Assembly: GCA_945883695.1 (NCBI GenBank)
Contig: CAMCYK010000001.1
Span: forward strand, 40,730 to 104,729
DNA: 64,000 bases
DNA from: Akkermansia muciniphila
Lineage (GTDB): Bacteria; Verrucomicrobiota; Verrucomicrobiia; Verrucomicrobiales; Akkermansiaceae
Direction of reading: 5' to 3'
Each line of letters opens with the position of its first letter. Position 1 is the first letter of the stretch. The notes below the pieces were generated by a model. That model did not search any database and was not told where the DNA came from. It was given only the letters and a program-made list of their open reading frames with translations. This document shows positions 37,574 to 43,599 of this stretch, one piece after another. A program made the translations under genes and the position numbers.

Positions 37574-38428
37574 TCATTCCACCCCCGCCGGAAAAACCGG
37601 GCGGTGGGTGTATTCGGCGAAGCTGACCTTCCCATCGCCATTGCGGTCGGCTTCCGCGAAGATCGCCTCCAGCACGCCCGGGCCGGATGGACGCAGCACG
37701 GCGGTGAATTCGCCGAAGGTCAGGAAACCGTTGCCGTCGAAATCCAAGGTGTTGAAGGAAAGCCGGACCTCGTGGGCCTCCAGCACGCCGAGCGAGGCGG
37801 GCATGACCAGCGGCACGGATCCCTTGCGTGAGAATTCGGCGACCGAGAGCCCGCCGTCGCGGTTCTTGTCAGCACGGCGGAAGGCCTTGGCCTTGGTCGC
37901 TGCCGCGCCCGGGCGGCGGGCGGAAAACTCCGCGGGATCGAGGCTACCGTTGTCATTCGCATCCAGCGCTTCGAAGGCGACCGCGCAGCCGTCCTCGATG
38001 TCCGCGGCGAGCGCAGCCATTTTCTCCCTGCGCGACTGTTTCGGCGGTGCCGGAACACCGGTCTGAAAAATCACCGGATCGAGCTCGAACGCCGGGTCTT
38101 CGGGGTTGAGAACCGGATCGTCGTCGATACCCCCGGCGGTGTGATAAATCACCTCCGGGCCATCGCGCTTCAACCAATTCGGATCCCAGCCGCCGGGGAA
38201 CCAGTCGTCCGGCGCGGGATCTTCGATCACGTCGGGAACCTCGCCCGCGTCATCGTCTTCCGCCTCGTCCTGGTCGCCCGTTTCCTCGTCGTCAGCCGGC
38301 ATCTCATCATCCGACGGGACTTCCTTGTCGACCGGGACCAAGGGCAGGATGGACACGGAGTCCTGGGAAATCGCCGGGCAGGTGCCAAAGGCGATCAGGA
38401 AGGTGGAAAGCAACAAGGTGGGCTTCAT
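37574..38428 (-). CDS. Secreted EF-hand protein
   Basis: Signal peptide; four EF-hand loops DANDNGSLDPAEF, DKNRDGGLSVAEF, DFDGNGFLTFGEF, DRNGDGKVSFAEY; acidic region. Confidence 0.85.
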   Translation of the reverse strand: MKPTLLLSTFLIAFGTCPAISQDSVSILPLVPVDKEVPSDDEMPADDEETGDQDEAEDDDAGEVPDVIEDPAPDDWFPGGWDPNWLKRDGPEVIYHTAGGIDDDPVLNPEDPAFELDPVIFQTGVPAPPKQSRREKMAALAADIEDGCAVAFEALDANDNGSLDPAEFSARRPGAAATKAKAFRRADKNRDGGLSVAEFSRKGSVPLVMPASLGVLEAHEVRLSFNTLDFDGNGFLTFGEFTAVLRPSGPGVLEAIFAEADRNGDGKVSFAEYTHRPVFPAGVE

Positions 38429-38519
38429 GGTGGTGGGATGGGGATAGGTAGCCGGAAACGATCCGGGCACCATGCATGACGGGGACCGGCAGGCGTCCTT
38501 GGAAACAAGCGCGAAAATG

Positions 38520-40472
38520 TCAGAACTTCACCCCCAGCTTCAAAAGCACGCTGTTGTCGGATTTCCCGCCCTCGCGCCATTCCACGCTCGTGATCGCGTC
38601 GAAAAACATCGGGCTGCCCGGCGGAAGCCAGCGCAATCCACCCTCCAGCAATACCGAATCCCGCTCCGGCAAAACCGGCGGAACCCCGAAATTTCCTGTT
38701 TGGCCGCCCTGCACCATCGCCGCGTCCGCCAGCGTGGCACGATGCCGCCATCCGATGACGGCGTGCGGCAACCACGTGCCGGCCGGGGTGTCGTAGCGAC
38801 CGGACGCCTGCCATCCGATCAGGAAGGTCATCAGGGCGAAATCCCTCCCTGCCATGGCGACCCCGCCGGCAAACGGCTCCTGATACCCATCAAACGAGCC
38901 CCACGATCCTTCGAGCCCGGCCACCGGTCCGTGGACCCAGTTTCCGGCATCGAACTCGCGGGTGAACCACAGCGACAGCAGTTGAACCGTGGCATCCTGG
39001 GCGGCCGGCCGCATCATGCCGCCGGACATCCGCCACAGGTCCTGGTCGAACGTTCCCAGGCGGTGGGTCAAGGCGGCATGATAGCCACCGTGCCGCCAGT
39101 CGAGCGACCACGAGAAGGCGACCCCTTCGGCATCCACCGTCCCGAACCCGGGCACGTCCATTCGCGAATCGATCCCCGTCAGGGAAACCCCGGCTTGCCA
39201 GGAGGGTGAAAGCAACCACGACATCCCGGCCTCGATCCGCGAGGTATCCGACTCCACCCCGCCGTTCCCGGAGGGCAGGTTGAGATCCATCGTCTGGAAA
39301 TCCGCCGACATCCAGGTAGCCGCTCCGCTTCGCGTGAGATCCGGGCGTCCGGACACCGGGCCACGGAGCAGGGCGGAAAAAAGGTAAGGCTGCGCCTGGG
39401 ACAACACGAAGGATCCCGCTTCCGGGACAGCCGCCGGGAGCGGCTTTTCAAGCCCGGCAGCGGAGTCGGAATCCGGATCCGCACCGTCCGTGCGCCCGAT
39501 CGCAGCGGCCTCCAGACCGCGGCTACCCCACGGGAGGCGCGGGCTCGGGATCGGCGCCGCTCCGTCCAGGTTCGCCAGGAGCGGCGCGCCGGATTCGAAC
39601 TCCCGGACCGAGGGAAGCCGCTGCCATCGCGGGCCCTCGCCCGGCGGTCTGAGATCGATGGCCAGCAGCTGATCCAGATCCACCGGAGGTCCGGCAACCG
39701 GTTCCATCGCTGGACGCGAGGGCGGCGGCGCGCAGGAAAACTCGGGCTCCCGCGGCCGTCCCGGCGCAACCGTCGGGAACCATGGGGCGGTCGCCGAAGG
39801 CCGATTCAGAGTCCTGCTTGCCGGACGAGGAACCGGCCATTCATGCAAAGGGTCCGCGACTTCCGGCCCTGCTCCATTCTCCGCCCGGGCGGTCGCGGAC
39901 AGCGGGACCGGCCCCGTTTTAACTTCCGAAGTCACCGCCATCGTGGATCGGGCAAGCCCGGGAGCGCCGGGAGATTCCGGTTTCTGGAACAGCAGCCAGG
40001 CCAGCGCCCACACCGCCGCACCCGCCAGCCAAAGGCCCCGATCACCGGCACGACGATCGGAAAACACCCTCCGCAAGCGCCGCCGTTCGCACCACCCGGG
40101 CACCGGGCGCGGCGGCAACAGCGACTCCGCCCGGCAGCAGAAATTCCGGATCTCCAGGCCCTCCCGCTTCAACTCCCCGTCACCCGCCATCCTCCGCTCC
40201 AGGACCTCGCGACCCATCCCCGCGAGCTCTCCGAGCGCCCACGCGGTCAACTCCTCGTCCTTCACCGCGATCGTCAAGCGGACCACCAGATCGCGCCGCC
40301 GGGCGGCTTCGAAAGCGATCTCACCGGGATCGAGCGCGTCCGCCAGTGCCTCCACGAACCGCGCCGACGCCAGGATCTCCTCCCGTTCGGCCGCGGTGAG
40401 ATCGATGCCGCCCGGATCCAGCGCCGCCGTGAGCAGCCGCTCGAAATCATCGTCATCCTCCGGCCCGTTCAT
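38520..40472 (-). CDS. Predicted inner-membrane anti-sigma-like protein fused to C-terminal outer-membrane beta-barrel
   Basis: Start overlaps sigma factor stop (ATGA). N-terminal ~150 aa cytoplasmic, basic RRLRRVFSDRRAGDR then TM GLWLAGAAVWALAWLLF, Pro-rich linker, ~300-aa C-terminal region of alternating amphipathic strands ending ...NSVLLKLGVKF (terminal Phe). Confidence 0.65.
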   Translation of the reverse strand: MNGPEDDDDFERLLTAALDPGGIDLTAAEREEILASARFVEALADALDPGEIAFEAARRRDLVVRLTIAVKDEELTAWALGELAGMGREVLERRMAGDGELKREGLEIRNFCCRAESLLPPRPVPGWCERRRLRRVFSDRRAGDRGLWLAGAAVWALAWLLFQKPESPGAPGLARSTMAVTSEVKTGPVPLSATARAENGAGPEVADPLHEWPVPRPASRTLNRPSATAPWFPTVAPGRPREPEFSCAPPPSRPAMEPVAGPPVDLDQLLAIDLRPPGEGPRWQRLPSVREFESGAPLLANLDGAAPIPSPRLPWGSRGLEAAAIGRTDGADPDSDSAAGLEKPLPAAVPEAGSFVLSQAQPYLFSALLRGPVSGRPDLTRSGAATWMSADFQTMDLNLPSGNGGVESDTSRIEAGMSWLLSPSWQAGVSLTGIDSRMDVPGFGTVDAEGVAFSWSLDWRHGGYHAALTHRLGTFDQDLWRMSGGMMRPAAQDATVQLLSLWFTREFDAGNWVHGPVAGLEGSWGSFDGYQEPFAGGVAMAGRDFALMTFLIGWQASGRYDTPAGTWLPHAVIGWRHRATLADAAMVQGGQTGNFGVPPVLPERDSVLLEGGLRWLPPGSPMFFDAITSVEWREGGKSDNSVLLKLGVKF

Positions 40473-40996
40473 CGGTCGTTCCCCTCCCGTTGCCACTGAT
40501 CGCGCATCGACTTCACCGCATGGTGCAGCAGGTAGCCGACATGACCTTCGGTGATGCCGGTGATCTGGCTGATTTCCCGGTAGCTCAGCCCCGCTTGGAA
40601 TTTCAAGCGCACCAGCTCGCGCTCCCGCTCCGGTAGGGAATCCACCATCCTCAGCAGCGAGGCCGCCTGCTCGGTGGCCTCGAGCCGCGCCGAAGGCGGT
40701 GGCACTCCGTCGAGGTCCCGCTCCAAATGGCTGTTTTCCAGCGGCACCAGCCGGAATTGCTTGCGCCGGACGTCGATCAGGCGGTTCCGGCAGACGCTGA
40801 AAAGCCAGGCCGGCAGGTTCTGGGGCCGTTCGTTAGGGGCCTCCGCGGCCAGCTTGAGAAAGGTGTCCTGAACGGTGTCCCGCGAGAGTTCGCGGTCGCC
40901 GCAGATGCCGAGCGCGTATTTCAACAGCGGCTTCTCGTAGCGCTCCAAGGCGCCTAACAACCATTTTTCTGAAGGCTCGGGGGAGAGGGCGGACAT
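40469..40996 (-). CDS. ECF-type RNA polymerase sigma factor
   Basis: LLKYALGICGDRELSRDTVQDTFLKLAAE (sigma2), LPAWLFSVCRNRLIDVRRK, LPERERELVRLKFQAGLSYREISQITGITEGHVGYLLHHAVKSMR (sigma4). Confidence 0.93.
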   Translation of the reverse strand: MSALSPEPSEKWLLGALERYEKPLLKYALGICGDRELSRDTVQDTFLKLAAEAPNERPQNLPAWLFSVCRNRLIDVRRKQFRLVPLENSHLERDLDGVPPPSARLEATEQAASLLRMVDSLPERERELVRLKFQAGLSYREISQITGITEGHVGYLLHHAVKSMRDQWQREGNDR

Positions 40997-41244
40997 CGGG
41001 CGAATCGAAGGGAAATCGGAAAAGGCTCTCCTCGTCGCCGGGACCGGCCCGGCGACGAGAAGGCCATGGTCGGGGGGATTCCAGAGGACCGGGCACGATC
41101 CAACAAAAGCATTACGTCGAACCGCCGGGTTACTTGGAAGATTTCCTGAAAAACTTCCGCCGCCCCGGGGTGGACCGGCTTCCGAAGCTCGGACCGCTCG
41201 ATTGCGGGCTCGACCTTTTCCCCGGATCGACGACTTTCCCGCCG

Positions 41245-43599
41245 ATGATACGCCTCGAACTGCCGCTGGTTTTGGCGCTGATGATCGGCTTGGCCGGCAT
41301 CGCGCGCGGCGACCGGCGCGAATTGACCGAAAGCCGTCACCCGACCGCCATGGAGATCCGTCGCCACCGGGCGAAGGCGGCCGCAAAGGTCGCGGCTGAA
41401 GATTTCCGGCCGATGCCCCGGATCGTCGGCGGCAAGGGGGCGGCGGACGGCGAATACCCGTGGATGGTGGCGCTGGTCGAGGCAGGGGAAGCGGACGCCT
41501 ACGACGGCTTTTTCTGCGGCGCGAGCTTGATTCATCCGCGCTGGGTGCTGACCGCGGCGCACTGCGTGCTTGGCAGCCGGGCGGAAGACCTCGAGGTGCT
41601 GGTCGGAGCGACGAATCTCGCCAATCCCGGGGCCGCCCGGCGGATCGCCGTGGCGGAAATCGTCATCGCGCCCGGCTGCAATGATTTTACCAGCGACCAC
41701 GACTTCGCGCTGCTGCGGCTCGCGGAAGCCGCGGAGGGGACCGTGCTGCCGCTGCTGGACGATCCCGCGCTGGCGTTGCCGGGGATTCTGGCGACGGTGA
41801 CCGGGTGGGGTGACACGACGAACGGGGATCGGAATTTTCCGACCCGCTTGCAGGAGGTGGAGGTTCCGATCGTCGATATCGCGCTGGCGAACGCGAGCGA
41901 TGCCTATGCCGGGACCCTTACCGGCAACATGCTGGCGGCGGGATTCGGGGGCGGAGGCAAGGACGCCTGCAACGGGGATAGCGGCGGGCCCTTGCTGGTG
42001 CCGTCACCCTTTTCACCCGGCTGGATGCAGGCGGGGATCGTCAGTTTCGGTTCCGGCTGTGCCTTGCCGGGGGTTTACGGGATTTATACCCAGGTCGGGA
42101 ATTTCAGGGATTTCATCACCGGCCATCTCCGGCCGAACTACGCCGGGTGGGAGCTGGCGAACGATCGGGTGGGGGAGAACCGTGACCCGGACGGCAACGG
42201 ATTCAGCAATTGGGAGGACTTCGCGTTGCCGGGTCACCAGCTCGAAACCGGGATCGAGTCGTCGAAGCTGCGGTTCTCCTATGTGCGGCCGACGATCGCG
42301 CCGGAGGTTGAATATGTCCTTGAGAACGCGCCGGGCCCGGGCGGGCCGTGGACCGCGCTCTCCCCGAACTTCGTTTCCGTGGTGGACCAAGGCGGCGGCC
42401 TCAGCCGCTGGACCTACGAGCTCCCGCAATCCGCCGATAGCGGGGTTTTCCGGGTGCGCGCCGGCTTTTCCGCTGCGCTCGCCCCGGGCCCGCGGCCGCT
42501 CGGGTTCCCGGGCGGGGCGGTCGGGCGCCTGGACGAGGACGATGTCGTGCACCCGGCGTTTTTCGACCGCCGGATCAAGCTCTACCGGCTGGACGGCGCT
42601 CCGGTCGGCGCGAGCGTCTCGCTCGCCCTGCGCTCGGCGGACTTCGATGCCCGGCTGGAACTCATCGACGCCGCCAGCGGCGCGGTGCTGCAAGTCGCCG
42701 ATGCGAACCAAGGGCTCGGCCGCATCGGCGGGGACGAGATCCTGACGCTGACCCCGCAGGCCGGGACGACCTATCACCTGCGGGTCACCTCGTCGGCACC
42801 GCACCAAGCGGGCGACTTCGAGCTGAACGCTTGGGATGCGGGCCCGCTCGATCTGCTGCCGTCGCTATCGGCCGTTCAGTCGGTCGCGGGCACGCTGGAC
42901 GCGGCCGATGCCTTGGATCCCTTCTTCCTGCCGGGTGGCAGTTATTACAAGGATGACTACCGGCTGGTCACCGGTTCCGCGCCCGCCGGGGCGCTGATGG
43001 AAATCCGCATGAAGTCGAAAGGTAGCGCCGCCAAGGGGATCGACGACTTTGTGTCCTTGATCGATGGCGAGAGCGGTCGCCTGATCGCGGGCAACGACAG
43101 TTTTCTCGGCAAGGGCAACGACGCCGGGCTGCGTTTCCTGCCGGTACCCGGCAAGTCCTATGTCCTGCGGGCCAGTTCCGGGATCGAGCGGGACATCGGG
43201 AGATACACCCTCGGCTCGTCGCTGGCCGCCGCGGGGACGACTACCCCGCTGGCTGCGATCGGGGTGGGCGGCACGTTCAGCGGCAAGCTGACGGGCTCGA
43301 GCGAGCTTGAAGAGCGTTACTTCACGTTCAAACGGGACCATCTGCTGGCTCCCGCGGTCGCCGGCCAGCCGCTCTCCGTGAGCTTGTCTTCCCTTAGGTT
43401 CGACGCGTATCTGATCCTCCTCGACGCCTCCGACCTGACCGTGGTCGCGGCGGCGGACGGCGGCGGGCCTCCCGGCGGGCGGGACAATGCCGGGGTGACC
43501 TTCACCCCGCGGACCGGCCGCCGCTACCTGATCCGCGCGACCACCTATGAAATCCGGGAAAAAGGCCCGTACATTTTGCGCGTTGCTGCCGCCCCGTGA
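41245..43599 (+). CDS. Secreted trypsin-like (S1A) serine protease with C-terminal repeat domains
   Basis: RIVGGKGAADGEYPWMVAL activation-type N-terminus, VLTAAHC (His), DHDFALLRL (Asp), CNGDSGGPLLV (Ser); DPDGNGFSNWEDF TSP3-like, two PPC-like C-terminal domains. Confidence 0.9.
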   Translation: MIRLELPLVLALMIGLAGIARGDRRELTESRHPTAMEIRRHRAKAAAKVAAEDFRPMPRIVGGKGAADGEYPWMVALVEAGEADAYDGFFCGASLIHPRWVLTAAHCVLGSRAEDLEVLVGATNLANPGAARRIAVAEIVIAPGCNDFTSDHDFALLRLAEAAEGTVLPLLDDPALALPGILATVTGWGDTTNGDRNFPTRLQEVEVPIVDIALANASDAYAGTLTGNMLAAGFGGGGKDACNGDSGGPLLVPSPFSPGWMQAGIVSFGSGCALPGVYGIYTQVGNFRDFITGHLRPNYAGWELANDRVGENRDPDGNGFSNWEDFALPGHQLETGIESSKLRFSYVRPTIAPEVEYVLENAPGPGGPWTALSPNFVSVVDQGGGLSRWTYELPQSADSGVFRVRAGFSAALAPGPRPLGFPGGAVGRLDEDDVVHPAFFDRRIKLYRLDGAPVGASVSLALRSADFDARLELIDAASGAVLQVADANQGLGRIGGDEILTLTPQAGTTYHLRVTSSAPHQAGDFELNAWDAGPLDLLPSLSAVQSVAGTLDAADALDPFFLPGGSYYKDDYRLVTGSAPAGALMEIRMKSKGSAAKGIDDFVSLIDGESGRLIAGNDSFLGKGNDAGLRFLPVPGKSYVLRASSGIERDIGRYTLGSSLAAAGTTTPLAAIGVGGTFSGKLTGSSELEERYFTFKRDHLLAPAVAGQPLSVSLSSLRFDAYLILLDASDLTVVAAADGGGPPGGRDNAGVTFTPRTGRRYLIRATTYEIREKGPYILRVAAAP

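Follow-up and report, generated by a model that had tools for sequence, protein, structure and literature searches.

Gene organization and conservation of the locus

Within the window (the whole stretch of 64,000 nucleotides analyzed here, from Akkermansia muciniphila), a gene for an ECF sigma factor is followed on the minus strand by a 650-aa reading frame, hereafter the chimera, which joins, in order, a predicted cytoplasmic helical domain, one membrane helix, a Pro-rich linker, and an autotransporter translocator. The features of this gene pair are as follows:

40469..40996, minus strand: gene for the ECF sigma factor, a protein of 175 aa with sigma2 and sigma4 domains (Pfam and NCBIfam, PDB relatives, orthologues)
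38520..40472, minus strand: chimera gene, 650 aa, for a putative membrane anti-sigma factor with an autotransporter translocator (Pfam, AlphaFold, Foldseek, six intact orthologues)
40038..40472, minus strand: predicted cytoplasmic N-domain, residues 1-145, all helical (AlphaFold mean pLDDT 81, 32 sequences; profile matches phylum-wide behind ECF genes)
40275..40445, minus strand: two tandem 'F..LL..ALDPG(E/G)I......R..L' motifs, residues ~10-35 and ~39-66 (alignments)
40113..40250, minus strand: 'LTAWALGEL...FC.R' segment, residues ~75-120 (weak PRK13920 and NF052375 matches, alignment, pLDDT 93-96)
39981..40037, minus strand: single predicted transmembrane helix, residues 146-164, positive-inside (hydropathy and charge in seven orthologues; helix 142-161 in the model)
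39429..39980, minus strand: Pro-rich linker, residues 165-348, predicted to be disordered and periplasmic (AlphaFold pLDDT under 40 for almost its whole length)
39366..39419, minus strand: predicted autotransporter-type helix before the barrel, residues 352-369 (AlphaFold; Foldseek alignment span on EspP, EstA, and NalP)
38523..39320, minus strand: predicted 12-strand beta-barrel, residues 385-650 (PF03797, E=2e-18; AlphaFold, Foldseek; C-terminal Phe in 7/7)

The two genes are joined by a 4-nt ATGA overlap, at the positions that an earlier note on this DNA had given for them. That note had also described a positive-inside membrane helix after the N-terminal part and an autotransporter-style barrel at the C terminus, and both are borne out here. 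Its order of parts stands as well, while their sizes are revised from ~150 to ~145 aa for the N terminus, from ~200 to 184 aa for the linker, and from ~300 to ~266 aa plus a pore helix for the barrel. We rejected an assembly artefact or a frameshift fusion, because the intact reading frame with an equal overlap is found in seven genomes, one of which has it on a contig of 1.2 Mb. An internal start yielding a separate barrel was likewise rejected, as no conserved start codon with a ribosome site lies ahead of the membrane helix.

The sigma protein matches Pfam Sigma70_r2 (2e-10) and Sigma70_r4_2 (2e-13), has SigL, SigE, RpoE, and SigW as PDB relatives, and carries only the sigma2 and sigma4 domains that, at ~170-200 aa, define the ECF class. 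A whole-genome search added six genomes of this genus that carry the sigma-chimera pair (G125, G129, G064, G039, G108, and G133); their sigma orthologues are 67-90% identical and their chimeras 32-61%. The pairing thereby holds in related genomes: the sigma gene lies directly upstream of all seven full-length chimera homologues, and the ATGA overlap is kept. Two outcomes that the earlier note had named as refuting its reading, a C terminus without a predicted barrel and homologues lacking a sigma neighbor, were thus not observed. Three of these six other loci were also present in MAG records, in a contig search with the chimera alignment; a contig search queried with a single protein returned no chimera homologues, and a plasmid search gave no match. 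Outside the genus, no chimera appeared among the few candidates scored per genome (387 genomes of the order and 388 of the phylum).

Conservation is uneven along the chain, with identities of 40-63% in the N-domain, 38-76% in the barrel, and 25-38% in the linker, and in the G125 barrel the change at codon positions 1 and 2 is 0.15, compared with 0.44 at position 3. This is the pattern that selection on two folded ends plus a spacer would leave.

The predicted barrel, the linker, and the predicted membrane helix

Three approaches converge on the nature of the C-terminal part, which on the predicted structures is an autotransporter translocator composed of a pore helix and a 12-strand barrel. 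Specifically, the Pfam Autotransporter match spans chimera residues 387-615, the AlphaFold model places 12 strands over residues 385-649 after the helix at 352-369 (pLDDT mostly 60-89), and Foldseek matches the barrel to EstA, AaaA, EspP, BrkA, and NalP, with E-values down to 1.6e-15 and a TM-score of 0.82 on NalP. Outer-membrane barrels usually end in Phe, as do all seven chimeras. A derivation of the barrel from a PEP-CTERM remnant, raised by a 'PEPGS' string before the helix, was judged to be a coincidence, the segment being the predicted pore helix.

On the Kyte-Doolittle scale, the membrane helix reaches only 1.27 in the window protein, compared with 1.55-2.54 in the orthologues. Between it and the barrel, the linker (184 aa and 19% Pro in the window protein) has no Pfam domain, and some 184 extended residues would be ample to cross the periplasm.

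Such a linker also invites a different reading, in which a periplasmic cut always separates an ordinary membrane anti-sigma factor from an independent barrel, so that the fusion ties together only their dosage and the start of their synthesis. Autotransporters are often cut before the barrel, and a long, disordered, weakly conserved stretch is what a cleavable spacer would look like. However, linker length is kept at 177-232 aa across all seven genomes, no conserved cleavage motif was seen in the alignment of the chimeras, and two separate genes could serve equally. On balance, we regard obligate splitting as unlikely.

An N-terminal domain of ECF partners

A search profile built from only the seven chimera N-domains was applied to 388 genomes of the phylum, and of its best matches outside the chimeras, all 18 whose loci were examined sit directly behind an ECF sigma gene. 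Hydropathy predicts a membrane helix in 17 of these 18 relatives, and none carries a barrel of the chimera type within the stretch of each locus examined. Further, two NCBIfam anti-sigma models, NF052375 and PRK13920, match all five chimeras scanned with E-values of 7e-6 to 2e-4, below the curated cut-offs; no NCBIfam anti-sigma family model reaches its curated cut-off on the chimera N-domain, and an NCBIfam anti-sigma model matches a YfbK-type partner with E=1e-12.

The 'LTAWALGEL...FC.R' segment is the part common to anti-sigma-like partners across the phylum, and it falls within a confidently modeled region of the domain (pLDDT 93-96 at residues 70-120). The N-terminal domain of class I (ASDI) anti-sigma factors has four helices, with helices 1-3 forming a bundle; in the model of the chimera N-domain, predicted helices span residues 56-79, 86-97, 99-118, and 127-138. 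Foldseek of this model gave no PDB match that was significant by E-value; the anti-sigma factors RslA and ChrR had the highest probabilities listed (0.41 and 0.54), with an rmsd of 2.0-2.4 over ~50 aa and E-values above 1. The ALDPG(E/G)I motif varies in copy number among partners, from one in the PEP-CTERM type described below to the tandem pair of the window protein and three, the first degenerate, in G039, G064, and G108.

From the lack of an HXXXCXXC (Hx3Cx2C) zinc motif, which the chimera sequence indeed does not contain, the earlier note had argued for a novel anti-sigma fold. We reject that claim on family evidence, that is, the NCBIfam matches, the phylum-wide profile, and the ECF adjacency of 18/18 relatives. 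Class I anti-sigma domains often have no zinc ligands, about 44% being without them, and the motif is not required (PMC7406223). The chimera shares the class I (ASDI) feature of a gene that adjoins, and is co-encoded with, its ECF sigma gene. Given the ECF adjacency and the anti-sigma model matches, the N-domain belongs, as judged from sequence, to an already known kind of ECF-partner domain, lacks zinc ligands, and is likely an inhibitor that would bind the neighboring sigma factor.

These observations bear directly on the possibility that the barrel is an ordinary surface protein, the N-domain a long extended signal peptide or leader, and the sigma factor independent of both. Autotransporters with long signal peptides exist, and the other barrels of the chimera's type in the family and order mostly have ordinary, signal-peptide-like N-terminal starts. 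We nonetheless find this reading highly improbable, considering that the N-domain is ~145 aa long, conserved, and homologous to the 18 ECF-adjacent proteins, that the chimera has no conserved internal start, and that partner type follows the sigma phylogeny.

Sigma phylogeny and exchange of the C-terminal module

Beyond the chimera group, the nearest sigma relatives (~49-55% identical) occur in G019, G006, G079, and G133, and also in a second genus of the family, where three genomes have them. The partners encoded at these same loci have a related N-domain (hhalign E=2e-5, probability 77%) and a membrane helix, and end in a PEP-CTERM-like tail in place of a barrel. G133 holds both types. TIGR02595 scored above its cut-off in one of the four PEP-CTERM-type partners tested, the others being recognized by eye, and an exosortase is present in 18/18 genomes of the genus. 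In the sigma tree, the barrel-type clade (98/93) is sister to the PEP-CTERM-type clade (100/100), and both are set among sigma factors with vWFA-type partners; the sigma phylogeny thus matches partner architecture, and it fits a single origin of the barrel fusion. By these comparisons, the novelty is the exchange of a C-terminal module, barrel versus PEP-CTERM-like signal, on a shared N-domain and membrane helix.

The PEP-CTERM-type partners, encoded directly downstream of their sigma genes, show the anti-sigma-like N-domain, the membrane helix, and a tail with a PEP motif, a hydrophobic stretch, and an Arg cluster. They are apparently anti-sigma factors marked for exosortase sorting, which would be unusual in itself. 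Pairings of ECF sigma genes with YfbK-like vWFA or related proteins that have an N-terminal 'YALGEL' anti-sigma-like domain plus a membrane helix recur within the order. Several ECF partners with a very large C terminus (L078-L081) were considered as secretin fusions and rejected, as their end is, by eye, a vWFA/YfbK-like domain.

A promoter-like motif and its candidate regulon

Alignment of the upstream regions revealed a promoter-like motif, CCAAGGAA-N13-CGTCATGC, before the sigma gene in 7/7 chimera genomes, with an invariant 13-nt spacer. The features of the window that relate to it are:

41109..41137, minus strand: promoter-like motif CCAAGTAA-N13-CGTAATGC, 112 nt upstream of the sigma ATG (aligned in the seven chimera genomes)
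38474..38502, minus strand: second motif copy, CCAAGGAC-N13-CGTCATGC, one mismatch, after the chimera stop and before the EF-hand gene (likewise placed in G125 and G129)
37574..38428, minus strand: gene for a secreted EF-hand protein, 284 aa, candidate regulon member (Pfam EF-hand_7, 5e-23)

Sites with zero or one mismatch number 14 in the seven chimera genomes versus 2 in 11 other genomes of the genus, and the motif is absent from the PEP-CTERM loci. EF-hand orthologues lie near the chimera in G125, G129, and G064, each with the motif in front, as in G000. The motif also precedes the gene for a small secreted protein in G039, G064, and G108, and in the window's own genome at two mismatches, a level at which matches are mostly noise and of which several occur even in non-chimera genomes. 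A looser form (..CGACTTGC) stands before another secreted protein gene in four genomes. The small secreted protein, with the motif in front of its gene, is 141-148 aa long and has no Pfam match; in some genomes, another secreted-type gene follows it.

Most simply, the motif would be the promoter of this sigma factor, although it could belong to another regulator. That it stands in front of the sigma gene and of genes encoding secreted proteins suggests that the pair is autoregulated and has a small envelope regulon.

Two other features were observed near the motif. First, a perfect GC-rich inverted repeat, CTCGTCGCCGGG...CCCGGCGACGAG, lies at 41031-41059, downstream of the putative promoter and ahead of the sigma start codon; in G125, it is not obvious by eye. 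Second, the product of the divergent neighbor (41134-43599, plus strand) is a trypsin-family protease (PF00089, E=2e-50) that also has PPC domains; it could belong to the sigma-chimera pathway as a periplasmic or secreted enzyme.

Relation to known systems

The nearest described systems are FecI-FecR-FecA and IutY, and neither has an anti-sigma factor and a barrel in one chain. As in FecI/FecR/FecA, control of an ECF sigma factor would be exerted across the inner membrane by a protein connected with a barrel in the outer membrane, and RseP-type proteolysis is plausible. In that system, however, the barrel is a separate TonB-dependent receptor, whereas in the chimera the anti-sigma-like part and a predicted 12-strand barrel share one chain, which has no Pfam match to FecR, STN, or TonB-receptor domains. 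IutY of Pseudomonas putida is a sigma factor fused to an anti-sigma factor, and it ends in the periplasm (PMC9249621).

Other comparisons are partial as well. The chimera resembles RseA, which acts on sigmaE in Escherichia coli, in being a single-pass anti-sigma candidate with a periplasmic tail, and sensing of outer-membrane protein assembly is the analogy we propose. RseA detects unfolded porins in trans through DegS, whereas the barrel of the chimera would be attached in cis. With the type Va autotransporters EstA, AaaA, EspP, BrkA, and NalP, it shares the C-terminal helix and 12-strand barrel, but it lacks an N-terminal signal peptide, its first hydrophobic segment being the one at 146-164, after a conserved, predicted cytoplasmic domain. 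It also lacks a folded passenger, the linker being predicted to be disordered, and its membrane helix looks uncleaved. Finally, it has gene order, a homologous N-domain, and one membrane helix in common with the Verrucomicrobial 'YALGEL' ECF partners (YfbK-like vWFA and PEP-CTERM types), which differ in ending in a vWFA domain or a PEP-CTERM signal.

A fusion of an anti-sigma factor and a barrel was not described in the titles and abstracts listed by our searches of open-licence literature. In Bacteroidota, a similar layout may exist, with OMP_b-brl barrel proteins that have a predicted cytoplasmic or transmembrane N terminus and are encoded beside sigma-70 genes. If real, that layout, with its different barrel class, would reduce the novelty of the architecture.

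Proposed mechanism

We favor, as moderately probable, an autoregulated pair of a sigma factor and an anti-sigma factor, the latter having an anchor in the inner membrane and a tether to a barrel in the outer one, with proteolysis freeing the sigma factor. This reading is argued for by the ATGA overlap in 7/7 genomes, the ECF adjacency of 18/18 N-domain relatives, the weak anti-sigma model matches in 5/5 chimeras scanned, and the resemblance, not significant by E-value, of the N-domain model to RslA and ChrR. It is also argued for by the autotransporter character of the barrel, the kept linker length, the agreement of the sigma tree with partner architecture, the motif before the sigma gene in 7/7 genomes and before secreted-protein genes, and the presence of RseP and BamA homologues in the genome. 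The N-domain would hold the sigma factor at the inner membrane, and the membrane helix and the flexible linker of ~180 residues would tether it to the barrel, whose insertion into the outer membrane would fall to the BAM machinery. Failed insertion or loss of the barrel, a pull on the tether, or a bound ligand could each act as the trigger at the outer-membrane end: the linker would become accessible to a periplasmic protease, upon which RseP-type intramembrane proteolysis would free the sigma factor. The freed sigma factor would then drive expression of its own operon and of genes for a few secreted proteins from promoters of the CCAAGGAA-N13-CGTCATGC type. This topology poses a puzzle. In classic autotransporters, the residue that precedes the pore helix is on the cell-surface side, and a tether from the inner membrane would therefore have either to loop through the pore or to leave the helix out of it.

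A further reading, along the lines of the outer-membrane sensor proposed in the earlier note, is a ligand-sensing surface receptor analogous to FecA-FecR-FecI, in which the loops or pore of the barrel would bind an external molecule and the signal would pass to the N-domain. An outer-membrane barrel coupled to an ECF sigma output accords with this idea. Yet the barrel is predicted to be of the 12-strand autotransporter type rather than a TonB-dependent receptor, no uptake or transport genes were seen to adjoin the pair directly (its neighbors encode the EF-hand protein and the trypsin-like protease), and the sister clade works without a barrel. We consider ligand reception doubtful, and somewhat more so than the split product discussed above.

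Instead, because the sister clade has a PEP-CTERM export tag in the barrel's place, our favored first guess, by analogy, is that the C-terminal module reports on the status of late envelope export or assembly. In its strongest form, which we put forward tentatively, a single chain would reside in the cytoplasm, inner membrane, periplasm, and outer membrane at once and act as a switch, the barrel reporting outer-membrane assembly or integrity to the ECF sigma factor, and module swaps retuning which export route is watched.

ECF signaling from the surface to the genes of Gram-negative bacteria normally takes three proteins, and, if our reading is true, a one-chain version would be the simplest such route known. 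A cis read-out of the tension or assembly state of an outer-membrane protein would then become directly testable. Further, the PEP-CTERM sister version suggests that the anti-sigma factors of this phylum may use export destination tags as sensors.
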